From the NCBI GenBank assembly GCA_014727975.1, contig WJMK01000022.1, positions 1-37,628 of the forward strand: a DNA stretch of 37,628 nt. Reading direction: 5' to 3'. Positions 6,010 to 30,659 of this stretch are shown here, piece after piece. Each line of letters opens with the position of its first letter. The first letter of the stretch is position 1. The notes beneath the pieces were generated by a model. That model searched no databases and had not been told where the DNA came from. It worked only from the letters and a program-made list of their open reading frames with translations. This DNA is from Microcaldota archaeon (lineage in GTDB: Archaea > Micrarchaeota > Micrarchaeia > Anstonellales > Bilamarchaeaceae). Position numbers and translations under genes: made by a program.

Positions 6010-7305
6010 ATGGCAAAAATAGATTGGTATGACCAGTTTGTGGATTTAAAGTACAAGCCAGCCAAAGATGACATAGTAGTCCTCTTCTACTTCGAGCCCC
6101 CTGCAGGAATGAGCAAGAAGGAATCCGCAGGAAGGATTGCATCCGAAAGCTCTACAGGAACCTGGACAACGCTTACCAAGCTCCCTCCCCGCATAAAGAA
6201 GCTCAGCGCCACTGCATTCAAGATGGATGGGAATTACCTCAAAGTCGCTTACCCTGCTGGACTCTGGGAGAACGGGAACATGGCACAGCTCCTCTCTGGA
6301 ATTGCAGGAAACATATTTGGCATGAAGGGAGTGAAGAACCTCCGCCTCATAGATGCAAAACTCCCCAAGAGCTACCTGAATAGCTTCAAGGGCCCGCAAT
6401 ACGGGATGCAGGGAATAAGGAAAATGATGGGCATAAAGAAGCGCCCGCTCACAGGAGCAGTAGTAAAGCCCAAAATAGGTTTTTCTGCCTCCGAGCATGC
6501 AAAGATAGGTTATGAGACCTGGCTGGGCGGATTTGATTTTGTAAAGGATGATGAGAACCTCACTTCCCAGAAATTCAACAGGTTTGAGGAGCGCGTAAAA
6601 ATCCTGACCAGGCTGAGGGATAAGGCAGAGAAAGAAACAGGGGAAAAGAAATCCGCATTCTTCAACATCACTGCAGAAACAGAGGAGATGAAGAGGCGCG
6701 CAAAGCTTGTTGCGGATGCAGGATGGAACTACGTAATGGTCGATATAGTAGTAACCGGAACATCCGCAGTGCAAACCATGACTGATTACTGCAGGGACCT
6801 TGGGCTTGCAATCCATGCCCACCGCGCAATGCACGCATCATTTACCAGAAATGCAAAGCACGGCATGACGATGCAGTTCCTTGCAAAGACAATGAGGGTC
6901 CTCGGGGTAAACAACATCCACACTGGAACTGCTGTAGGAAAGCTTGTAGGCTCAAAAGAAGAAGTCTCCGCACTCGCAGACGTGCTTAGGGAAAAGAAGA
7001 CAAAAGCAAAAAAGAACCTGATTCTTGAGCAGGACTGGGGAAACATGAAAACAGTTTTCCCTGCATCCTCAGGAGGCCTCCACCCGGGATTGGTCCCGGA
7101 TGTAATGGATATTTACGGGAACGAGATGGTACTTCTTATCTCAGGGGGAATCCATGGGCACCCCAAGGGAACGAGGGATGGTGCAGCAGCCACAATGCAG
7201 GCAATTGATGCAGTAATGGAAGGAATTTCCCTCAAGGAAAAGGCAAAAAAGAATAAGGAATTGGCATGGGCCCTGAAAAAATGGGGGCATCACAAGCCCA
7301 AATGA
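6010..7305 (+). CDS. rbcL: RuBisCO large subunit, form III-like
   Basis: This 431-residue RuBisCO fixes CO2 onto ribulose-1,5-bisphosphate. All active-site positions I checked are present: Lys153 and Lys155 (VVKPKIG), the carbamylated Lys179 with Asp181 and Glu182 (FVKDDEN), His271-Arg272 (HAHRAMH), His304 (NIHTGTAVG), loop-6 Lys311, SSGG at 353-356 and SGG at 378-380. Length and the lack of a small-subunit gene fit form III of archaea, which usually acts in the AMP nucleoside salvage pathway. Form II/III cannot be excluded without a tree. The partner enzymes, AMP phosphorylase and ribose-1,5-bisphosphate isomerase, are not in this window. Convergent with the desulfoferrodoxin gene, one base between stops. 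Confidence 0.95.
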   Translation: MAKIDWYDQFVDLKYKPAKDDIVVLFYFEPPAGMSKKESAGRIASESSTGTWTTLTKLPPRIKKLSATAFKMDGNYLKVAYPAGLWENGNMAQLLSGIAGNIFGMKGVKNLRLIDAKLPKSYLNSFKGPQYGMQGIRKMMGIKKRPLTGAVVKPKIGFSASEHAKIGYETWLGGFDFVKDDENLTSQKFNRFEERVKILTRLRDKAEKETGEKKSAFFNITAETEEMKRRAKLVADAGWNYVMVDIVVTGTSAVQTMTDYCRDLGLAIHAHRAMHASFTRNAKHGMTMQFLAKTMRVLGVNNIHTGTAVGKLVGSKEEVSALADVLREKKTKAKKNLILEQDWGNMKTVFPASSGGLHPGLVPDVMDIYGNEMVLLISGGIHGHPKGTRDGAAATMQAIDAVMEGISLKEKAKKNKELAWALKKWGHHKPK

Positions 7306-15769: not shown

Positions 15770-16717
15770 ATGGATATTTTTGCAATGTCACTCACAGTCT
15801 TGGGGCTCATTTTCTTCGAAACCATCACCAGCCTGGACAATGCAGTGATAAATGCAGAAATCCTTTCAAAGATGAGCGAGAGGGCAAGGAAATGGTTCCT
15901 GCTATGGGGCATCCTGATTGCTGTTTTCATGATAAGGGGCTTTCTTCCCGCAGCAATTGTGTGGGTGGCAAACCCGCATTTCACAATCGAGGAAGTATTT
16001 ACATCTACCCTTTCAAGCGACCCCGAAGTTGTAGAGGCGATGGAGCAAAGCGGCCCGGTCCTCCTCATAGCCGGAGGCATGTTTCTCATTTTCCTGTTTT
16101 TCCACTGGCTATTCCTTGAGCCGAAGCATTTTGGCCTCCCTACTGAAAAGTTTTTCAAGGAACAGGGAGTCTGGTTTTTTGCAATAGTGTCCATAATCCT
16201 TGCATACGTAACATGGCATGCAATAAACCTGGACCCGCTCCTTGCATTCGGGGCAGTTGTAGGCTCAACTGCTTTCTTCATAGTCCACGGCTTCAAGCAG
16301 AATGCGGAGTTGCAGGAGGCAAGGCTCAGGGAAGGGAAAGCAGAGCTCACAGACTTCAGCAAGCTCATGTACCTGGAAGTTATTGATGCAACTTTTTCAA
16401 TAGACGGAGTTGTAGGCGCGTTTGCATTTACCTTTTCAATCCCGCTCATCCTTATTGGAAACGGGGTTGGCGCATTTATGGTCAGGGAACTCACAATACG
16501 AAATATTGAGAATGTAAAGAAGTACGTGTTCCTGAAAAACGGGGCAATGTATTCAATCTTCTTCCTTGGCCTCATCATGGTCCTCGACAGCTTCGGGGCG
16601 CACATTCCTTCATGGGTTTCACCCATAATTACTTTCTCGGTAGTAGGTTTCTTCTTCTGGAAATCAGTTTGCAGGCTTAACGTCGAGGAGAAAAAGAAAC
16701 CAAAAAAGAAGGACTAG
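15770..16717 (+). CDS. DUF475/TerC-like integral membrane protein
   Basis: This 315-residue protein has about eight hydrophobic segments. It contains FFETITSLDNAVINAEILSK near the N-terminus and LEVIDATFSIDGVVGAFAF near residue 205. These paired acidic motifs within membrane helices (E-T-x-x-S-L-D-N and D-x-x-F-S-x-D) are typical of the TerC/DUF475 (YkoY-like) branch. Family members are linked to metal (Mn2+) export or tellurite resistance. DUF475 itself is not functionally defined. It has its own promoter, and its stop overlaps the stop of the opposing polB by 4 bp. Confidence 0.88.
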   Translation: MDIFAMSLTVLGLIFFETITSLDNAVINAEILSKMSERARKWFLLWGILIAVFMIRGFLPAAIVWVANPHFTIEEVFTSTLSSDPEVVEAMEQSGPVLLIAGGMFLIFLFFHWLFLEPKHFGLPTEKFFKEQGVWFFAIVSIILAYVTWHAINLDPLLAFGAVVGSTAFFIVHGFKQNAELQEARLREGKAELTDFSKLMYLEVIDATFSIDGVVGAFAFTFSIPLILIGNGVGAFMVRELTIRNIENVKKYVFLKNGAMYSIFFLGLIMVLDSFGAHIPSWVSPIITFSVVGFFFWKSVCRLNVEEKKKPKKKD

Positions 16718-19107
16718 AACCAGTCCCCCAGCCCCTTCTGTTTCCCCCCGTGCTTCAGTTCGTACTCATCATAGCCAAGCTCCTTCAGTATTTTCATCAC
16801 GGAAGGCAAAACCTGGTTATCAATATAATATGAAGGGTCATAATTGTCAGCAAACTCCAGCAGCTCAGCCTTGTCCGAGATGCTTTGCCCCTTCCTTGTT
16901 ATTACATATGATATGATGCTCCCCCGCCCAATCTTTTTTCCCTTTTCAATCCCCTTCTGCGCTGCAGAGAGCTCAGGGGATTTAATATCGTAATTTTTGG
17001 TGTCTTTCTTGAGCTGGGTGTAAATCGCAACTTCCTCCAAAGGAACTTCTCCGGATTTAAGCCGCTCAATAACTTCCCGCACAATCTCCACTGCCTTTTT
17101 CCTGCTCCCCTCTTTAAGTATTGCCTGGAGCACTTTTTTCTGGGTGTCCCGCGCAACACGCGACCAGTCCCTGCGCACGAGCTCAAAGCCCTTTATCTTG
17201 ATGCTCCCGTCTTCAGCAAGCATTGCATATTTCTTCTTGGCCCCGGTAGCCTCCTTCTGGTGCTTCTTGCTCACGAATACGCCACGGGTATAGAAATCCT
17301 CCAGCTCAAGCTCCATCTTTCCTGGGAGCTCATCATTGATTTCACCCAGGAATTTCAGCGCATCTTCCTTGGTTTTGTCCCCCAGAAGCAGGAATACGCT
17401 ATCTGTATCCATGTACAATACCCTGAATCCTGATTCCTCTGCCCTTTTCTCGAGTTCCCTTATGTGCTGCCTTCCCCATGCAGTAACGCTCTCCGCGCAC
17501 TTCCGGTTGTACCACCTGGAGCGCGCATAACCCAGGTACCCGTAGAACGAGTTCGCAAGAATCTTCAGCGCATATGATTTGGCATATGCCTTGTTGTATG
17601 CAGTGGAGCCCTTTTCAAGCTCCTTCAGCATTTTCTTTACCTTGACCCTCCGGTCAATCAGCCCCTCAAGGACTTCCGGGATGAGCCCCACTGGCTTCCT
17701 GAGGAAGTTTGCCCCCGTAGGAGATTCAAAGCTTTCCCCCTCCCTGTCCATCCTGTCCGGGTCAATATTATATGAGCAGATTATGCTCGGGTACAGCCCA
17801 CGGAAATCAAAAACAGCTATGTTCTCGTAAATCCCGGGCTCCGGAAGCTTCACGTACGCGCCCTTAATCGGGTTTTTCATCCGTGCGTTAACCGCACTCC
17901 CTGAAGGCTTAGGCGGAACAACCATCCCCTTACGGATAGCCTCGCTCATCAGCAGGGATTCCACAAGCTGCCCTGAAGTGGCATATGCAACATCAAACAA
18001 AGGAAGGCGGCTGACCTCGGAAAGCTCCATCTGGATGGGCAGGATATGTTCTCCAAGCTCATAGGTGGATGTAGCATCCATCAAAGAATAATCAGAAAGC
18101 TCATCGAGCTCCCCCTCGTCCCACATCTTCCATATGTCCAGCCTTTCCACCATTTTCTTCTTTTTCCCAGTAACTGCAGAATATACGTTTTTCAGCGTAT
18201 AATCCCCTGTTTTTATAAGGCCGGTGAATCCGAAAAACCGCACGGATGGATACAGGTCTACATTAATCCGCCCGAGCACTTTCAGGGGCTGGATAAGGCC
18301 CTTTTTAGTGACCCTGTAAGATGAGCCATCCCTTCCTATTGCCAGGGAAATCTTGTTTCTTTGCGCCCTTTCCTTTAGGTAGGGGAGGTCGAAATTAGTG
18401 CTGTTGTATGCCATCAATATATCTGCGTCCTTCTCCTCCAGAACAGAGCAGAATCTCTCGATAAGCTGCTTTTCCCCATCTACTGTTTCCACGAAATCCT
18501 TTCCAGGGACTTCCTTGTATGTAAGCACTCCACTGTCCTTTCCTGTGGCATAGCTTACCATGATTACCGGGTCCTTGCGCTCCCGTGGCGCCCCTTCAGG
18601 GTTATAGGTTTCAATATCAAATGCAAGCCTGTTGAGCCTGGAGCCCCCGTTTTCCCCTATTTTCAGGAACTCCCTGATTATTCTCCCCTCCCTCTCATAG
18701 TGTATTATGGAAAGTGGCACCAGCCCATGGTCCATCATTACCCTCCGCCCGAATGGAATAGAGTATTCATAGCATGCAAAATCCACATGCGCCTCGAGTA
18801 TGGGCACGTCACGCGGGGCATTGCACATTACCTTCAGGAGCTCTTTCTTTCCCCCGCGGAGCTCCTTCTCTACAGCCTCAACACCCTTAGGAGAAACAAC
18901 TTCTCCGTCCTTGGCCTTGGCAACAATGCCCATTATCTCCTTTTTTGCTGCAGAGGGCGCATCCACGTAAAAATAAGGGTCGCATTTGTAATAGAGTACA
19001 GAAGCCCGCTTCCCCTTAACCTCGAGGCGCGCGTACGTCTGGCCCTTCTTGATTACATAATCTACATTAAGGAGAACAGCTTTCTTTCTCACACTTTGTG
19101 GGCCCAT
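16714..19107 (-). CDS. polB: Family-B DNA polymerase
   Basis: This 797-residue replicative polymerase has proofreading and polymerase active sites intact. Exo I is AFDIETYN with Asp164 and Glu166, Exo II YNSTNFDLPYL with Asp240, Exo III YSLMDATSTYELG with Asp344. Polymerase motif A is DFRGLYPSIICSYN near 434, motif B KILANSFYGYLGY near 515 and motif C YMDTDSVFL near 565. The C-terminus, QKGLGDWF, fits a PIP box for PCNA binding. Length and motifs match archaeal PolB3-type enzymes, and no intein is present. It lies 30 bp downstream of the triple-repeat protein gene on the same strand. Confidence 0.97.
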   Translation of the reverse strand: MGPQSVRKKAVLLNVDYVIKKGQTYARLEVKGKRASVLYYKCDPYFYVDAPSAAKKEIMGIVAKAKDGEVVSPKGVEAVEKELRGGKKELLKVMCNAPRDVPILEAHVDFACYEYSIPFGRRVMMDHGLVPLSIIHYEREGRIIREFLKIGENGGSRLNRLAFDIETYNPEGAPRERKDPVIMVSYATGKDSGVLTYKEVPGKDFVETVDGEKQLIERFCSVLEEKDADILMAYNSTNFDLPYLKERAQRNKISLAIGRDGSSYRVTKKGLIQPLKVLGRINVDLYPSVRFFGFTGLIKTGDYTLKNVYSAVTGKKKKMVERLDIWKMWDEGELDELSDYSLMDATSTYELGEHILPIQMELSEVSRLPLFDVAYATSGQLVESLLMSEAIRKGMVVPPKPSGSAVNARMKNPIKGAYVKLPEPGIYENIAVFDFRGLYPSIICSYNIDPDRMDREGESFESPTGANFLRKPVGLIPEVLEGLIDRRVKVKKMLKELEKGSTAYNKAYAKSYALKILANSFYGYLGYARSRWYNRKCAESVTAWGRQHIRELEKRAEESGFRVLYMDTDSVFLLLGDKTKEDALKFLGEINDELPGKMELELEDFYTRGVFVSKKHQKEATGAKKKYAMLAEDGSIKIKGFELVRRDWSRVARDTQKKVLQAILKEGSRKKAVEIVREVIERLKSGEVPLEEVAIYTQLKKDTKNYDIKSPELSAAQKGIEKGKKIGRGSIISYVITRKGQSISDKAELLEFADNYDPSYYIDNQVLPSVMKILKELGYDEYELKHGGKQKGLGDWF

Positions 19108-19137: not shown

Positions 19138-19878
19138 TTAGTAGCTGCCCTTCCTCAGGGCAAGCTCTTTGTCAATAAGCTCTGAAACAACGTCCCTCGG
19201 GATAAATCTCCTCCCGCTGATTTTCACATGCGGGATGCGGTTCCTGTCGAGCCTCCTCTCGAATGCATTCCTCTTTATGGACACATCTCTCTTGTGCAGC
19301 TCCTTCAGCGCCTCGCTTACAGAATAATATTTCTTTGCAACGTGGCTGAGGGAATCGATTGCATCCTTGGGGATGAGCCTTTTTGTCCCAATTTTCAGGG
19401 AAGGAATGGAGTTTTTCTCCACTCTGCCTATGAAGGCGCGGTAATTAATATTCTTGTTGTGCTTTTTGTAAACCTCATAAGCTTTCCTTACTGTGTAAAA
19501 GTTGTCGCTTATGCCAAGCATATCCTCAAGGGACTGTACGGGGAGGTACCTTTTCTTGCCAATTTTTACTGAGGGGATGCTCCTTCTTTCGATTCTTCCT
19601 CCGAATGCCCTGAATGAAATGTCAAGGCCCTTTGAACGGAGAAATTCATAAGCTTCCTGGATAGAATAAAGGCCTGCTTTCTTGAGTGCGTCATCACTGA
19701 GCTTTTTCCTTGAGCTCATTTCCTTGGCAGAGTCCATAACATTCTCTATGGATGAAGAAAGCTGGCCTTCCAGCTCCTCTCGCTCTCCTTTAAGCTCTTC
19801 CATGTCTAGGGACCTAAAGGAATCAACCTTATCATCGTCTATTTTTTTGTTTATTACAATTCTCCTTCCCCTCGGCAC
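19138..19878 (-). CDS. Protein with three 57-residue winged-helix-like repeats
   Basis: This 246-residue protein is not a family I recognise. A basic start (PRGRRIVINKK) and an acidic helical region to about residue 65 precede three tandem repeats with an exact period of 57 residues (about 70-124, 127-181, 184-238). Each reads Y-(S/T)-(V/I)-x-x-A-x-E/K, a helix, then R/N-AF-x-x-R-x-(E/D), IP-(S/H)-x-K-I-x-x-(K/R)-R-x-(I/L)-P. This resembles excisionase/MerR-like winged HTH domains. GTG 19878 was chosen because AGGTGA lies five nt upstream. The next gene is polB, probably in the same transcript. A multi-site DNA-binding role is inferred. Confidence 0.78.
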   Translation of the reverse strand: MPRGRRIVINKKIDDDKVDSFRSLDMEELKGEREELEGQLSSSIENVMDSAKEMSSRKKLSDDALKKAGLYSIQEAYEFLRSKGLDISFRAFGGRIERRSIPSVKIGKKRYLPVQSLEDMLGISDNFYTVRKAYEVYKKHNKNINYRAFIGRVEKNSIPSLKIGTKRLIPKDAIDSLSHVAKKYYSVSEALKELHKRDVSIKRNAFERRLDRNRIPHVKISGRRFIPRDVVSELIDKELALRKGSY

Positions 19879-19926
19879 ATTTTTCACCTTTTTCCGTTTT
19901 TATTAACATTATTATTACGTCTAAAA

Positions 19927-19936
19927 GATTTATAAA
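19927..19936 (-). promoter_or_regulatory. TATA-like box of the triple-repeat gene and polB
   Basis: The minus strand reads TTTATAAATC about 50 nt before GTG 19878, giving a leader of about 25-30 nt with AGGTGA at its end. Confidence 0.55.
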
Positions 19937-19943
19937 GCTATCG

Positions 19944-21248
19944 TTATTCTTCTTCGGTCAATCCTCGGATATAGCTCCAGACTGCATATGCAAGCACCAA
20001 AACCACAACAGCACCAATGACGATAAACAAGGTGTTGTCCTCGGCCCCGGTTGGAGGCTGCCCACCTTCCCCAGTTTCCTCTTCCTCAATAGGTTCCCCA
20101 TCTTCTTCCTCCTCTTCCCCAGGAGTTACCAGGTACTGCCCATTCACCGTCTGCATGTTGCCCTCCATGTCATATGTCGTAATGGTAAACCTCAGCAGGC
20201 TGTTCTCATCAGGAACAGGCATATCCACGATGTATGAGCCGCTCTCCACATATGGCACTGCATACTCTGTTACGCCGCCCACTGTATAGCTTACGGTTGT
20301 CTCGTCCAGGTCTGCTCCAGTCGCATATGCTCCATGGTCATATACAAAGAACCTTATCCTGAGCTCATCCTCGTCCCTCTCAACTTCCACATTTGTTATC
20401 TCTGGGGGAGTAAGGTCAAATGAAACAATGTAGTCTGTCTCAGACGCAAGGTCTATTTCAGGCGTTTTCTCCAGGGAACCGTAAACAACCTTAACATACG
20501 GGCTCTGGAGCGCTATTTCCTCTATTTCAACTTCTGAGCCCTCATATTCTTCATCTTCAACAATAATATCTGCAACAAGCGGGTCCCCCTGGTCGTCAAC
20601 AACCTGCAAATTAAGCGGGTATACTCTTGCCTGCAGAGTGTACGTTGTATCTTCCTCTACCTGTATCTCCTCGCTTATTACTCCGCTCAGGTAAGGGACT
20701 GCAACGTCCACATCCCCTTTGTTCACAATTATCGCCACGAATCCAGAACTGCTGGTATTCCTGTACATCTCATTTACCCTTATCTGCGTGCCTGCAATCG
20801 GGGAGCCGTACCTGTCAACTACCTTCAGGTTCAGGAGATATGCTTCCTCAAACCTCAACTGGAGCTCTGCAGAGTGGCTCTGTGCCTCAATTTCCCTTTC
20901 CACAACGACTCCATCGTATTCTGCAGTAATGGTAACGCCACATTCCACCCTGTCTTCAAAAACTTCTGAATTGCGTATTGTTTCTTCAACTTTTCCATCA
21001 GCACCGGTATATTGCGGATTTGTGGTCACATAGCCCTTCCCCGTAGTCCTGTCTTTCTGGTAGGTAACTGTTACTTTTGCATCTTCGATTGGCCTGTATT
21101 TGTGGTCAATAACCTTGATGTTCAGCGTATCTACAAATCCTGCTTCACATGCCCATGAAACGCTCGATAAGAGCAAAACTCCAAAAAGGAAAAAACTTGC
21201 CAGCAGGGCAAAGCTGCCTACTTTTTTCCACATGTTATCACGTTCCAT
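19944..21248 (-). CDS. Anchored surface protein with beta-sandwich domains
   Basis: This 434-residue protein has a signal peptide (hydrophobic residues 10-32, ending SVSWAC) and a C-terminal membrane anchor (IVIGAVVVLVLAYAVWSYI) followed by a short acidic tail. The ectodomain includes repeated carboxypeptidase-regulatory-like strands: LNIKVIDHKYRPIEDAKV, LNLKVVDRYGSPIAGTQI and LNLQVVDDQGDPLVADII. A later Ig-like part starts at PPEITNVEV. A Glu-rich stalk (about 378-405) precedes the anchor. The architecture is that of a cell-envelope protein with unknown ligand. ATG 21248 has AGGTGG three nt upstream; ATG 21233 is an alternative start. Confidence 0.82.
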   Translation of the reverse strand: MERDNMWKKVGSFALLASFFLFGVLLLSSVSWACEAGFVDTLNIKVIDHKYRPIEDAKVTVTYQKDRTTGKGYVTTNPQYTGADGKVEETIRNSEVFEDRVECGVTITAEYDGVVVEREIEAQSHSAELQLRFEEAYLLNLKVVDRYGSPIAGTQIRVNEMYRNTSSSGFVAIIVNKGDVDVAVPYLSGVISEEIQVEEDTTYTLQARVYPLNLQVVDDQGDPLVADIIVEDEEYEGSEVEIEEIALQSPYVKVVYGSLEKTPEIDLASETDYIVSFDLTPPEITNVEVERDEDELRIRFFVYDHGAYATGADLDETTVSYTVGGVTEYAVPYVESGSYIVDMPVPDENSLLRFTITTYDMEGNMQTVNGQYLVTPGEEEEEDGEPIEEEETGEGGQPPTGAEDNTLFIVIGAVVVLVLAYAVWSYIRGLTEEE

Positions 21249-21272: not shown

Positions 21273-23738
21273 TTACTCAGGGGGAGACGGAGGGGCAGCC
21301 GGGCCCTTGCTTTCAGGCTCCGGAACTTCCTCTGCCTGCTCTTCTGCTGCTTTTTCCTCGGGCTTCATCACCGTAAATGAGGAAACCTTCTCGCTCTCCT
21401 TGAGCTTTGCAATCCTCACTCCCATAGTGTTGCGGCCTATTACGGATATGTCACTTGCACCCATGCGCACGATCCTTCCGCTCGAGCTCACAACGATTAA
21501 CTCATCCCCATCGCTTGCGGATTTAACCCCTACAACGCTTCCGTTCCTCCCCCCTGTTTTTATGTTGATGATGCCTTGCCCTCCCCTTCCCTGCAGCCGG
21601 TACTCCTCCAGCCTGGTCCTTTTGCCATAGCCATTTTCTGTTATGGTAAGGATATGGGGCTTGCTGCAGACCGCGAAGCCTACAACTCCATCCCCTTTCC
21701 TGAGCCTGATTCCGCGCACTCCCATGGAGCCCCTGCCAGTCTCCCGCACGTCCTTTTCATCGAAGCGTATTGCAAGGCCGTTCTTTGTCCCGAGCATCAG
21801 GCTCTGGCTGCCATCTGTTTTCCTTACTTCTATGAGGCTGTCCCCTTCCCTGAGGGTTATTGCGTTTATGCCCCCTTTCCTCGGCCTGCTGAATGCAGAG
21901 AGCTTTGTCTTCATGATGGAGCCGTTCCTGGTTGCCATCATAAGGTGGAGGTTCTCGCTGAATTCCTGGACAGAAATCCATGCGCTTACTTTCTCCTCTT
22001 TCAGCTCAAGAAGGTTTACAATGGGCTTACCCTTTGAATACCTCCCCCCCTCCGGAATCTGGTAAGTCTTGAGCCAGTGCACCCTGCCCGCATCTGTAAA
22101 GAACAGCAGGTACCTGTGGTTGGTGGTCACTATAAGGTCTTCTATGAAATCCTCTTCAACTGTTTCCGCACCAATTACCCCAAGGCCACCGCGCTTCTGG
22201 GTCCTGTACTGCTCCAGCGGGACCCTCTTTATGTACCCCCTCTTGGAGAATGTAACCACGACCTTTTCATCCGGTATTAGTGCTTCCATGTCTCCAAGGT
22301 CTTCCTCTACATCGAGTATTTCGGTCCTTCTTTCATCAGCAAAGCGCGCCTTTGCTTCCTGGGCCTCGCGCTTTACTACCTCAAGTATCTTCTTTTCATC
22401 TGCCAGCAGGCTCTCAAGTATCCGTATTTCCCCCTCTTTTTCTTTTTTCTCCCTTACAATCCCTTCTCTTTCCATGTTGGTAAGCTTCTGGAGCTTCATG
22501 TCCAGGATTGCCCCTGCCTGCTTTTCCGAAAGCCCGTAAACTTTTCCTAGTGCGCCTTTTGCCTCATCTGCATTGTTCGCAGCCTTGAGCATCCCTACAA
22601 TCGCATCAATATTCTGCAGAGCAACAGCGAGCCCCTCAAGTATGTGGAGCCGGTCCTTTGCCTTTCGGAGCTCAAACTGGCTCCTCTTCGTAATAATCTG
22701 TTTCCTGAAATTAATGAACTCCCAGAGCATATCATTAAGCGTAAGGAGCTTTGGCTTCCCCTCCACAAGGGCAAGGTTGATTATCCCGAAGCTCTTTTCA
22801 AGGTCGGTGTGCGCATAAAGCTGCCTGAGCACAATCTCCGGGTCCTCCCCGCGCTTAAGGTCAATCTTGATGCTCATACCTTCTTTGTCTGAATGGTCAT
22901 GGAGCCCGCTTATCCCATCAATCTTCTTTTCTTTTACACGCGAAACAATCTGCTGGATAAGTGCTGTTTTATTTACCTGGTACGGGATTTCAGTAACTAT
23001 GATTTCTTTTTCCTTTACTTCTGCCTTCCCCCTTATCCTGATGATGCCCCTGCCTGTTTTGTATGCAGAGAGTATCCCGCTCCGGCCTACAATATATCCT
23101 CCGGTAGGGAAATCGGGCCCGGGAACAATTGCGAGAAGCTTTTCTTCATCTGCCCCATCTATCGCAGCAACAATTGCATCTGAAACCTCCCCAAGGTTGT
23201 GCGGCGGCACATTTGTCGCCATTCCCACGGCAATTCCTGCAGACCCATTTACAAGAAGGTTGGGAATCCGGGAAGGCAGAACAGTGGGTTCCTTAAGCGT
23301 CCCGTCAAAATTGGGGACAAAATTTACGGTTTCTTTTTCAATGTCCTTGAGCAGCTCTTCAGCAATAGCCTTCATGCGGACTTCGGTGTAACGCATAGCG
23401 GCTGCAGAATCCCCGTCCACGCTGCCGAAGTTCCCCTGCCCGTCCACGAGCACGCTCCTCAGGGAAAAGGGCTGCGCCATCCTTACAAGGGAATCATAAA
23501 TTGCAGCATCACCATGAGGATGGTACTTACCAAGCACTTCACCCACAATCCTTGCGCTTTTTTTGTAAGGTTTTGAATGGGTGTTGCCAAGCTCATGCAT
23601 TGAATACAGAATCCTCCTGTGCACAGGCTTGAGCCCGTCCCTTGCATCAGGCAGCGCCCTGCTTACGATGACGCTCATTGCATAATCCATGTATGATTTT
23701 TTCATGTCCTGCTCGATTGGTATGTCTGTAACTGCCAT
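21273..23738 (-). CDS. gyrA: DNA gyrase subunit A
   Basis: This 821-residue subunit breaks and rejoins DNA. The N-terminal domain has the catalytic Tyr117 in [10 protein letters not shown] and the conserved [16 protein letters not shown]. The long coiled coil follows, then a C-terminal beta-pinwheel. Its GyrA box reads QKRGGLG, one substitution from the canonical QRRGGKG, which supports negative supercoiling rather than a topo IV function. The last 35 residues are an acidic Pro/Glu/Ala tail. ATG 23738 was chosen because GGTGA lies five nt before it, inside the end of gyrB; GTG 23747 and ATG 23744 are alternatives. Bacterial-type gyrase in an archaeon implies ancient acquisition. Confidence 0.96.
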
Positions 23739-23747
23739 GGCCATCAC

Positions 23748-25628
23748 CTATACATCCAGGTTCTCTACCTCCTTTGCATGCTCATCTATGAATTTCCTCC
23801 TTGGCTCGACCGCATCCCCCATAAGCGTGGTAAAGAGCTCATCTGCAAGCATCGCATCCTGGATAGTCACTTTCTTCATTTTCCTGTTTTCAGGGTTAAG
23901 CGTTGTTTCCCAGAGCTGGCCAGGGTTCATTTCACCGAGCCCCTTGTACCTGCTCACATGTGCATTCTCCCCCATTTTTGCAACAAGCTCCCCCATCTCT
24001 TCATCATCGTATGCATACTCAAATGCCTTGCCTTTCTTTACCCGGTAAAGCGGAGGCTGGGCAATGTATAAATGCCCGCGCTCAACAAGCTCCTTGAAAT
24101 AACGGTAGAAGAGAGTAAGCAGCAGCGTCCGGATATGGCTTCCATCCACATCTGCATCCGTCATGATTACAATCTTGTGGTAGCGCAGCTTCCCAGGGTC
24201 AAAGTCATCCCCAAAGCCTGTCCCCAGGCTCATGATAAGCGTCTTGATTTCCTCATTCTTCAGGATTTTGTGGATTTGTGCCTTTTCCACGTTAAGTATT
24301 TTCCCCTTGAGCGGGAGGATTGCCTGGATTTGCCTGTCCCTCCCCTGCTTTGCCGAGCCCCCTGCGGAATCACCCTCCACAATAAAGAGCTCTGCTTTCT
24401 GCGGGTCGCGCTCAATGCAGTCTGCAAGCTTGCCCGGAAGCACACTGCTTTCGAAGACGCTCTTCCTGCGTATAAGCTCTTTTGCCTTCTGCGCCGCTTC
24501 TCGCGCATTCATTGCGCCCAGCACCTTTTCCCCAATCATGCGCGCCTCAGCCGGGTTTTCATTAAGGAACTGCATCAGGCTGTCGTACACTACACTAGAA
24601 GTGATTCCCTTTACCTCTGCATTCCCTAGCTTTGTCTTGGTCTGCCCCTCAAACTGGGGCTCCATCACCTTTACGCTTACGATTGCGGTGAGCCCTTCAA
24701 GCACATCGTCCCCGCTTATCTTCCTTCCCTTGAGCGCCTTGTTCCCTTTCATGTATTCATTTATTGCGCGGGTTAGCGCCATCCTGAAGCCCACAAGATG
24801 GGTCCCCCCCTCAATCGTGTTTATGTTGTTTACAAAGGAGTGCACCACCGATGTGAAGTTCTCTGTGTACTGGATTGCATACTCCACATCAACATCCTCT
24901 ACTTTTTTCCCGTAGCTGAAAGGCTTCTGGATTGGCTTCCTGGACTTGTTCATGTATTCCACAAACGTACTGATGCCGCCTTCATACTGGAATGCCTCTT
25001 CCTGCCCGGATTCTTCCCCGCGCAGCACTATCCTCAGCCCGGCATTCAGGAATGCAAGCTCGCGAAGCCTTTCCTTAAGGTAATTGAACTCAAGTTCACC
25101 AGTGAATATTCCCATATCTGGCTTGAACCGGATTATGGTGCAGGTTGTTTCTGTATTCCCTATAATTTCCACGGGCCCTGTTGCCCTTCCCATCTTGTAT
25201 TTTTGCAGATGGATTTTCCCGTTGCGATGCACTTCTGCCTCCATCCATTCGCTCAGCGCATTAACTACTGAGAGGCCGACTCCGTGCAGCCCTCCGCTCA
25301 CCTGGTATGCCTTTTTCTCGAATTTGCCTCCTGCATGGAGCATTGTTGTCACGAGCTCAAGCGCGGATTTCCCTGTCTTGGAATGGGTTTCCACCGGGAT
25401 TCCCCTTCCATCATCCCTTACCATCACTGAACCGTCTTTTTTCAGCAGCACTTCTATGTTCTTGCAGTATCCTGCAAGCGCTTCATCTATGCTGTTGTCC
25501 ACCACTTCGAAAATGAGGTGGTGCAGCCCACGCTTTGATGTGTCACCGATGTACATCGCAGGCCTTCTCCTTACCCCTTCGAGGCCTTCGAGCACTTTGA
25601 TGGATTCAGCTCCGTATTCTTCGACCAT
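23748..25628 (-). CDS. gyrB: DNA gyrase subunit B
   Basis: This 626-residue ATPase subunit of gyrase has its GHKL site visible as Glu41 and Asn45 (FEVVDNSIDEAL), Asp72 (RDDGRGIP) and GGLHGVGLSVVNALS. The transducer and TOPRIM domains follow, with VEGDSAGGSAKQGRDR, LPLKGKILNVEKA and IMTDADVDGSHIRTLL. The C-terminus has the usual YKGLGEMNPGQLWETTLNP. It lacks the long insert of enterobacterial GyrB. Its stop is close to the gyrA start, so the subunits are translationally coupled. A TATA-like box at 25660-25669 suggests its own promoter. Confidence 0.97.
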   Translation of the reverse strand: MVEEYGAESIKVLEGLEGVRRRPAMYIGDTSKRGLHHLIFEVVDNSIDEALAGYCKNIEVLLKKDGSVMVRDDGRGIPVETHSKTGKSALELVTTMLHAGGKFEKKAYQVSGGLHGVGLSVVNALSEWMEAEVHRNGKIHLQKYKMGRATGPVEIIGNTETTCTIIRFKPDMGIFTGELEFNYLKERLRELAFLNAGLRIVLRGEESGQEEAFQYEGGISTFVEYMNKSRKPIQKPFSYGKKVEDVDVEYAIQYTENFTSVVHSFVNNINTIEGGTHLVGFRMALTRAINEYMKGNKALKGRKISGDDVLEGLTAIVSVKVMEPQFEGQTKTKLGNAEVKGITSSVVYDSLMQFLNENPAEARMIGEKVLGAMNAREAAQKAKELIRRKSVFESSVLPGKLADCIERDPQKAELFIVEGDSAGGSAKQGRDRQIQAILPLKGKILNVEKAQIHKILKNEEIKTLIMSLGTGFGDDFDPGKLRYHKIVIMTDADVDGSHIRTLLLTLFYRYFKELVERGHLYIAQPPLYRVKKGKAFEYAYDDEEMGELVAKMGENAHVSRYKGLGEMNPGQLWETTLNPENRKMKKVTIQDAMLADELFTTLMGDAVEPRRKFIDEHAKEVENLDV

Positions 25629-28016: not shown

Positions 28017-28103
28017 CGTCGTAAAAAACCCACCCGACGAAAGTTTTTTCTGCTGTTTTAAGCTGCTGCAAAACTTTCATGAAAACATTGTCTGTTTTAA
28101 GCT
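28017..28103. repeat. Repeats and hairpins in a divergent intergenic region
   Basis: The gap between the lipoprotein and cca genes (27960-28172) holds the direct repeat CTGTTTTAAGCT at 28053-28064 and 28092-28103, 39 nt apart. It also has a 9-bp inverted repeat GAAAGTTTT (28039-28047) with AAAACTTTC (28070-28078), and CGTCG/CGACG at 28017-28021 and 28035-28039. Two copies only, so it is not a CRISPR array. A regulatory role for either divergent gene is possible. Confidence 0.4.
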
Positions 28104-28140
28104 ACTCTTGGATGCGTCCAGAGCAGCTTTTCCAGCCCCC

Positions 28141-29511: not shown

Positions 29512-29527
29512 TGTAACCATGGTTACA
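29512..29527. promoter_or_regulatory. 16-bp palindrome before purP
   Basis: TGTAACCATGGTTACA is a perfect palindrome 5 bp after the cca stop and about 15 bp upstream of the purP TATA-like box (29542-29550). Its position suits an operator for a dimeric regulator of purP. It could also be the transcript end of cca, but no T-run follows directly. Confidence 0.5.
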
Positions 29528-29550: not shown

Positions 29551-29582
29551 CTAATTATTCAGATTAATCCAAGGTGAGCAAT

Positions 29583-30659
29583 ATGTTTATTTCAACACTG
29601 GGCAGCCACTCCGCATTGGACGTTTCTGAAGGGGCAAAAGCAGAAGGATACAAGTCCCTTGTTGTCTGCAAAAAAGGCCGGGAAATTACATATTCCAAGC
29701 ACTACAAGGCCCGCAAGCGCGGCCCAAAGGAGCTCGGAGTCGTGGATGAAGTAATCCTTGTGGATGAATTCACGGACATGGTGAAGCCCGAAGCCCAGGA
29801 CCAGCTCAAGGATTCAGTCTTCATCCCCAACCGCTCGTTTTCTGTTTACGTGGGCTATGACAACATTGAAAACAAATTCAAAGTGCCTGTTTTCGGAAAC
29901 AAATACCTTCTCCGTGCAGAGGAGCGGACCGCAAAAAACAACCAGTACGATTTGCTAGAAGCCGCAGATGTAAACACCGCCCGCACTTTTACCCCTGACT
30001 CCATTGATTCTCTTTCCCTCGTAAAAGTCCAGGACGCAAAGCGCTCATATGAGCGCGCCTTCTTCTTTGCTGATTCTCCAAAAGAATACGAAGAGAAAAG
30101 CGCAAAGCTCCTCAAGGAAGGCATAATAAACGAGGAAGACCTCCAGGCCTCCCGCATTGAAGAGTTCATTCTGGGTGCCCAGTTCAATTTCAACTTTTTC
30201 CATTCCCCTCTTCATGGAGAGCTGGAGCTCCTGGGAATAGACTGCCGCCGCCAGACGAACCTGGACGGTCTCCTCCGCCTCCCCGCTCCCCAGCAAACCG
30301 AAGTGCTAAAGCACAAGCGCTTTACTACGATTGAGGCAGGCCATATCGCCTCCACTATGCGCGAGTCCCTCCTTCAGAAGGGAATAGAAGCAGGTGAGCG
30401 CTTTGTGGAAACAGTGAAGAGATTCTACCCCCAGGGCCTCATCGGCCCATTTGCGCTCCAGGGTGCAATTGAGGAAAAAGACGGCAGGGAGCGCTTCGTA
30501 GTTTTTGATGTTTCCTTCCGCATGCCTGGCTCCCCCGGAACCCGCTTCACACCTTATTCCGCATACCTTTACCGCGAGCCGGTAAGCTTCGGGCGCAGGG
30601 TAGCGATGGAGATAAAAGAAGCAGAAAAGGAAAACCGGCTAAAGGAGATTATCTCTTAG
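29583..30659 (+). CDS. purP: Formate-dependent AICAR formyl-synthetase PurP
   Basis: This 358-residue ATP-grasp enzyme converts AICAR, formate and ATP to FAICAR in archaeal purine synthesis. Family signs are STLGSHSALDVSEGAKAEG at the N-terminus, FIPNRSFSVYVGYDNIE near residue 85, FGNKYLLRAEE, and EEFILGAQFNFNFFHSP near 205. C-terminal RRQTNLDGLLRLPA, FVVFDVSFRMPGSPGT and GRRVAMEIKEA are also typical. ATG 29583 was chosen because AGGTGA lies five nt upstream; GTG 29574 is an in-frame alternative. It is convergent with the small membrane protein gene, overlapping it by 11 bp. Confidence 0.95.
   Translation: MFISTLGSHSALDVSEGAKAEGYKSLVVCKKGREITYSKHYKARKRGPKELGVVDEVILVDEFTDMVKPEAQDQLKDSVFIPNRSFSVYVGYDNIENKFKVPVFGNKYLLRAEERTAKNNQYDLLEAADVNTARTFTPDSIDSLSLVKVQDAKRSYERAFFFADSPKEYEEKSAKLLKEGIINEEDLQASRIEEFILGAQFNFNFFHSPLHGELELLGIDCRRQTNLDGLLRLPAPQQTEVLKHKRFTTIEAGHIASTMRESLLQKGIEAGERFVETVKRFYPQGLIGPFALQGAIEEKDGRERFVVFDVSFRMPGSPGTRFTPYSAYLYREPVSFGRRVAMEIKEAEKENRLKEIIS

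Follow-up and report, generated by a model that had tools for sequence, protein, structure and literature searches.

The window, by which we mean the whole stretch of 37,628 nucleotides analysed here (contig C23 of the source genome G000, 1.07 Mb in size and 88% complete), encodes a small basic protein with three winged-helix domains in a single chain, which we refer to as the triple-HTH protein. The gene is an order-specific chromosomal gene, near-universal within its order. Most genomes of this order are devoid of histones, which makes the protein, with its three fused domains that are predicted to read DNA, a good candidate for a chromosome organiser that has so far escaped notice. We give about even chances to the reading that it has a core role in chromosome architecture or binds DNA globally, as a head-to-tail trimer of BldC/Xis-like winged helices whose units come already fused. 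The predicted DNA binding, the binding mode, the abundance and the architectural role are what we infer from the comparisons described below.

The gene is located on the minus strand at 19138..19878 and translates into 246 aa from a GTG codon at 19878. The longest open reading frame (19138-19887, minus strand) starts with another GTG at 19887, which is in frame with the first. We preferred the GTG at 19878 because a Shine-Dalgarno sequence (GGTGA, 19884-19888) is found 5 nt upstream and the proteins of the relatives, which begin with MPRG..., start at the same point. The open reading frame, the Shine-Dalgarno sequence and the starts of the relatives confirm that the gene is real, and 19878, the end given in an earlier note on this DNA, is the better start. 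The gene has its own promoter with a TATA box TTTATAAA at 19929..19936 (minus strand). A TATA-like box is present upstream of the gene in most relatives and the stretch from the box to the start codon is conserved within genera. The protein opens with a basic tail PRGRRIVINKKID (19837..19875, minus strand; mean top-residue frequency of 0.61 across 53 relatives), followed by a helical segment (19675..19836, minus strand) for which the AlphaFold2 model shows helices at residues 15-21, 25-55 and 61-66, where the numbering begins with the P that follows the start codon.

The three winged helices lie at 19501..19671, 19330..19500 and 19159..19329 (all minus strand) and carry the recognition helices SFRAFGGRIER, NYRAFIGRVEK and KRNAFERRLDR, respectively. 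In pairwise comparisons the repeats share 21/57, 17/57 and 18/57 identities, contiguous and gapless in the window protein. The corresponding BLOSUM z values relative to shuffled sequences were 11.1, 8.0 and 8.2, and none of 5000 shuffles scored as high as observed. Both motifs reported before for each repeat, AF-x-x-R and IP-x-x-KI-x-x-(K/R)R, are indeed common to all three. A search of the source genome with the repeat profile returned these three copies and no others. The exact gapless period of 57 residues that had been described holds for the window protein but not across 63 relatives: there the distance from repeat 2 to repeat 3 is almost always 57 residues, the distance from repeat 1 to repeat 2 ranges from 56 to 58, and the period is therefore not strictly fixed.

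In the AlphaFold2 model (53-member alignment, mean pLDDT 89.5, pTM 0.78) the N-terminal tail is followed by a 31-residue helix (25-55), the only long helix of the chain, and then by the three winged-helix units. Each unit comprises a short strand, two helices, a two-strand wing and a further helix with a pLDDT of about 90-94, and each repeat is confidently modelled as a MerR/excisionase-type winged helix. The C-terminal dimerisation coiled coil and the effector-binding domain of the MerR family are absent, as the chain stops at the last helix of repeat 3. Repeat 2 matches the NCBIfam profile TIGR01764 'excise' with 33.1 bits (cut-off 28.8). Repeat 3 matches Pfam HTH_17 (PF12728) with 27.8 bits for a cut-off of 27, which is marginal and drops to 26.9 once the first 4 residues are left out; HTH_17 was matched by 50 of 53 relatives (E<=0.01). 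Foldseek matches include RacA bound to DNA (5i44, probability 0.98), Pukovnik Xis (4j2n, 0.91), the two-domain protein TraN (4p0z, 0.87) and MerR proteins, and among them there was no counterpart of the full three-domain layout. In the viral structure library the best long match reached a query TM-score of 0.43. The top fold matches in the PDB, namely a UFL1 chimera, troponin C and centrin, were rejected as helix-array matches only, with TM-scores of at most ~0.3 and an rmsd above 13 Å. PDB sequence searches with the whole protein and with the profiles of the family and of a single repeat gave nothing convincing, and we found no archaeal tandem protein of such a layout in the open-licence literature. 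The model, the two profiles and the matches to RacA, Xis and TraN thus bear out three excisionase/MerR-like winged helices per chain, as the earlier note had proposed. The note also knew of no described protein of this layout and named a strong match to a known family as a refutation. Such a match exists at the level of the single domains, whose class is already known from HTH_17/'excise' and the fold matches, but not for the complete layout: for three fused domains joined to a basic tail and a long N-terminal helix we found no described precedent.

The HTH_17/excisionase family (PF12728, TIGR01764) provides the same fold as each repeat, with cut-offs reached by repeats 3 and 2, but its classical members have one domain, and here three are fused and joined to a basic tail and a long helix. 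A model for the binding mode is BldC of Streptomyces (MerR-like; PDB 6AMA, 6AMK), which like the triple-HTH protein has a winged helix-turn-helix without an effector domain. BldC binds successive 9-bp direct repeats head-to-tail, with a helix in the major groove and the wing in the minor groove, and bends the DNA (PMC5859096). However, it is a single domain of 68 aa that oligomerises on DNA, whereas here three domains share one chain. The repeat profiles gave no significant match to the BldC sequence (as in PDB 6ama, 6amk), and the likeness is a structural analogy only. TraN of plasmid pIP501 (PDB 4p0z, 6G1T) also has tandem MerR/Xis-like winged helices in one chain and is a monomeric binder of double-stranded DNA (PMC10877727), but it has two domains, acts as a conjugation repressor and shows no sequence match to the triple-HTH protein that we could find. 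The excisionases RdfS and lambda Xis both form head-to-tail winged-helix filaments on DNA, RdfS with little sequence specificity and with an extra N-terminal helix (PMC11963761); both are unfused single domains of mobile elements and differ in this from the three fused domains described here. The archaeal chromosome proteins TrmBL2, HTa, Alba, MC1 and the archaeal histones are made of other domains or folds, and none of them has three tandem MerR-type winged helices. Lineage-specific turnover of archaeal chromosome proteins is known (PMC7613761).

We studied the distribution of the protein across the order and beyond. Within the window's order 81 of 84 genomes have it, against none of the 15 other genomes of the class. 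When the family profile was run over 295 genomes of the phylum, 79 of 82 genomes inside the order were matched and only 1 of 213 outside (G184). The three order genomes without the protein are metagenome-assembled genomes with completeness values of 71%, 84% and 72%. The gene is kept even in a genus with genomes of 0.5-0.6 Mb; the Anstonellales include the reduced-genome genus Redboyarchaeum of that size (PMC12892359), which suggests that the order is probably Anstonellales. All named relatives are Candidatus Micrarchaeota or archaeal metagenome-assembled genomes, one of them labelled ainarchaeum. The protein tree broadly tracks the family groupings and is consistent with vertical inheritance. 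Judged by identity to the window protein, the triple-HTH protein is conserved to a degree similar to that of polB when both are compared genome by genome (for example 71% vs 64%, 55% vs 53% and 50% vs 48%). The protein mostly occurs as a single copy per genome. A second copy was seen in a few genomes (L078 on G039:C42, L076/L077 in G051 and L071/L072 in G073), and the extra copies in G039 and G051 are strongly diverged.

The excisionase-type domain could also mark the protein as a relic of a mobile element, and the family B DNA polymerase gene polB (16714..19107, minus strand; Pfam DNA_pol_B 1.2e-61), which in the window starts 30 bp downstream on the same strand as the earlier note had observed, could mark it as a local controller of polB expression. 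Both genes are probably co-transcribed in the window. We nevertheless consider this pair of explanations very improbable and largely refuted, as the polB operon is restricted and the mobile-element records are negative. Searches of phage and plasmid records gave no match to the protein, none was confirmed in viral contigs, and no integrase was recognised among the translated neighbours of the gene; the linkage to an integrase, phage or conjugative element that is a trait of mobile-element excisionases (Xis/RDF) was thus not found. The broadly family-wise tree is consistent with vertical inheritance. As to polB, the order Ig-like membrane protein gene, triple-HTH gene and polB on the same strand is seen only in the window's family (f1) and in one genome of f8 (G049). 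Family f2 has polB as its divergent neighbour. The distance to polB is within about 7 kb in f9, in some members of f5 and probably in f11, and in the remaining families polB is not near the gene. Because the operon is confined to f1 and G049 and is lost or looser elsewhere, the polB linkage is a decaying neighbourhood and not a conserved operon. In most families except f1 and f8 the gene stands alone between a divergent upstream and a convergent downstream neighbour, often Pus10 and FtsY, and would usually be transcribed on its own. The conservation of the polB neighbourhood, proposed as a check in the earlier note, therefore does not extend to the order.

Another explanation that draws on the neighbouring genes is an origin- or centromere-binding factor for replication or segregation, which would mark one part of the chromosome for use by polB, gyrase or the partition proteins. 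The window contains gyrA and gyrB upstream of the triple-HTH gene (21273..25628, minus strand, identified by reading the translations), and the order gyrB, gyrA, Ig-like protein gene and triple-HTH gene recurs in g1, g9 and in the reduced genomes of g28 (f8). Together with the adjacency to polB in f1, its proximity in several other families and the MerR-like RacA among the fold matches, this kept order speaks for such a factor. We regard it as improbable all the same: many families show no polB or gyrase linkage and have FtsY and Pus10 as neighbours instead, no clustered site was identified, and Orc1/Cdc6 is present in 99 of 99 genomes. For the latter reason we also rejected a replacement of the replication initiator by this protein. 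The hint at replication start or polymerase control in the earlier note is thus at most weakly supported, with the operon limited to f1 and one f8 genome, whereas DNA organisation, which it had listed as a further option, remains in place beside the winged-helix DNA-binding fold. The Ig-like membrane protein itself (434 aa, 19944-21248, minus strand, directly upstream) stays next to the triple-HTH gene in f1 and f8 despite an identity of 22-33%.

The recognition helices (offsets 19-29 of each repeat) are near-invariant across the order within each repeat, yet unlike between repeats, with the highest conservation in repeat 3. In BldC, Lys26 and Arg30 contact bases (PMC5859096); by structural analogy only, their counterparts would be offsets 21 and 25, which are Arg/Gly in repeat 1, Arg/Gly in repeat 2 and Asn/Arg in repeat 3. 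This pattern suggests that repeat 3 may be the specificity anchor and that repeats 1 and 2 may read less sequence. Near-fixed recognition helices that are specific to each repeat also fit a sequence-specific regulator, which counts against the architectural reading. Such a global transcription regulator would read a composite operator of ~30 bp with its three heads and control few promoters, probably including its own. We consider this unlikely, though it has several points in its favour: the base-facing positions are nearly invariant and distinct in each repeat, the region from TATA box to start is conserved within genera, and TraN sets a precedent as a monomeric two-domain repressor of a 34-bp site that controls its own operon too (PMC10877727). 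The order-wide presence of the protein, its retention in genomes of 0.5-0.6 Mb and the missing effector domain point the other way.

A search for over-represented intergenic words and gapped 5+5-mers in 1.0 Mb of the source genome yielded no site assignable to the triple-HTH protein. For a regulator this means that no second over-represented and suitably shaped operator was found in intergenic DNA, and for the architectural role that no genome-wide site could be tied to the protein. The gapped 5+5-mers returned repeat elements and TATA boxes only. The strongest intergenic word was a perfect 16-bp palindrome, TGTAACCATGGTTACA, found in 14 exact copies that are mostly intergenic. There are 8-17 copies in each other g1 genome, 8-11 in g9 and 3 in g11, but g12 practically lacks the word, with a single mismatched copy in one of its genomes, although g12 has the triple-HTH protein. 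It was rejected as a site of this protein for that reason and because its symmetry is unsuited to a single head-to-tail chain. The dyad symmetry points to a dimeric regulator, for which TGTAACCATGGTTACA would be a parS- or operator-like candidate site. The copy in the window (29512-29527, plus strand) lies upstream of a purP-like gene (29574-30659, DUF1246/DUF1297); neighbours of the copies include purF-like and purP-like genes, dihydroorotate dehydrogenase, the DNA primase large subunit, a helicase, HisRS and SerRS.

We return to the architectural reading and to the general properties of the protein. The 63 relatives have 198-269 aa with a median of 245 aa, a pI of 10.0 and a net charge of +21. 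When genes are ranked by the similarity of their codon usage to the ribosomal-protein and elongation-factor genes of the same genome, the triple-HTH gene reaches the 90th percentile, higher than polB, gyrA and gyrB (69-78 percentile). In a leave-one-out check four of the five reference genes reached at least the 97th percentile, but S11 only the 74th, and codon bias is thus a weak proxy for abundance. Published criteria for predicting archaeal nucleoid proteins include a size below 290 aa, a DNA-binding domain, a single-gene operon and high abundance (PMC7613761). The triple-HTH protein is below this size and has a predicted DNA-binding domain; in terms of operon structure its neighbours are on the opposite strand in most families, and same-strand genes follow in f1 and part of f8. 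With 245 aa it is nevertheless large for a nucleoid protein, which argues against an architectural role.

The order and its surroundings differ in their histones. All 15 relatives outside the order have them (14 over the cut-off) and the phylum-wide survey found them in nearly all genomes outside the order, but inside the order they occur in only 23 of 84 genomes and are missing from 61. The histone-bearing families are f5 (19/20), f11 (2/2), f3 (1/1, a weak doublet) and f1 (1/43, the genome G009 with a contamination of 6%); there were none in f2, f4, f6, f7, f8, f9 and f10. Surveys in the literature record histones for the Micrarchaeota taken together (PMC6136690, PMC11390915). HU was found in 0 of 99 genomes, MC1 in one (G020, contamination 7%) and Alba in 88. 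The weak histone-fold doublet is encoded by a 144-aa frame at C83:32089-32487 of G044, the only f3 genome (triple-HTH locus L051), about 175 bp upstream of an Orc1/Cdc6 gene. Mapping histone presence on the triple-HTH protein tree needs 3 changes. The most economical account, which is unproven, places the origin of the triple-HTH protein near the base of the order; several families would then have lost their histones while Alba stayed. As the histone-bearing families f5 and f11 keep the triple-HTH protein too, it is not a simple histone replacement.

By analogy with BldC, each domain of such an architectural protein would reach into the major groove with its second helix and into the minor groove with its hairpin wing. 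A single domain would occupy roughly 9-10 bp, so that the chain would cover about three successive half-sites on one face of the DNA (~27-30 bp), and one bound molecule would bend the DNA. The chain would then resemble a pre-assembled stretch of a BldC/RdfS/Xis-like filament with three domains at near-fixed spacing. Further, non-specific contacts may come from the basic tail and from the N-terminal helix of 31 residues, or these parts may pair two molecules and so bridge DNA. Where histones are largely lost, the triple-HTH protein would act jointly with Alba and be one of the main architectural and global regulatory proteins. We only tentatively entertain a bolder version, in which the protein would stand for a new class among the archaeal chromatin proteins, with three winged-helix units fused into a strand that coats the DNA and bends it. 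It would have originated close to the base of one Micrarchaeota order, before the losses in most families, and would have led to these losses by making histones dispensable. How archaea package their chromosomes once histones are gone has yet to be settled, and little work has addressed this in the DPANN lineages. The order offers one named, small and purifiable protein for this question and a natural contrast between the histone-bearing families f5 and f11 and the histone-lacking f1 and f8, all of which have the protein. It also poses the question of how head-to-tail winged-helix binding works with three fused units, near-fixed spacing and distinct recognition helices.

Two further observations were made along the way. 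An intergenic repeat family around TAGCGTAAAACGG and the near-palindrome CTTGAGCAGAGCTCAAG resembles a small non-coding repeat element, with copies at L119:19463-19669, L173:4457-4792, L149:11165-11204 and L146:14290-14329 and a weak copy in the window at 28092-28104. The window also contains an open reading frame of 431 aa (6010-7305, plus strand) which, on reading its translation, resembles an archaeal-type RuBisCO large subunit.
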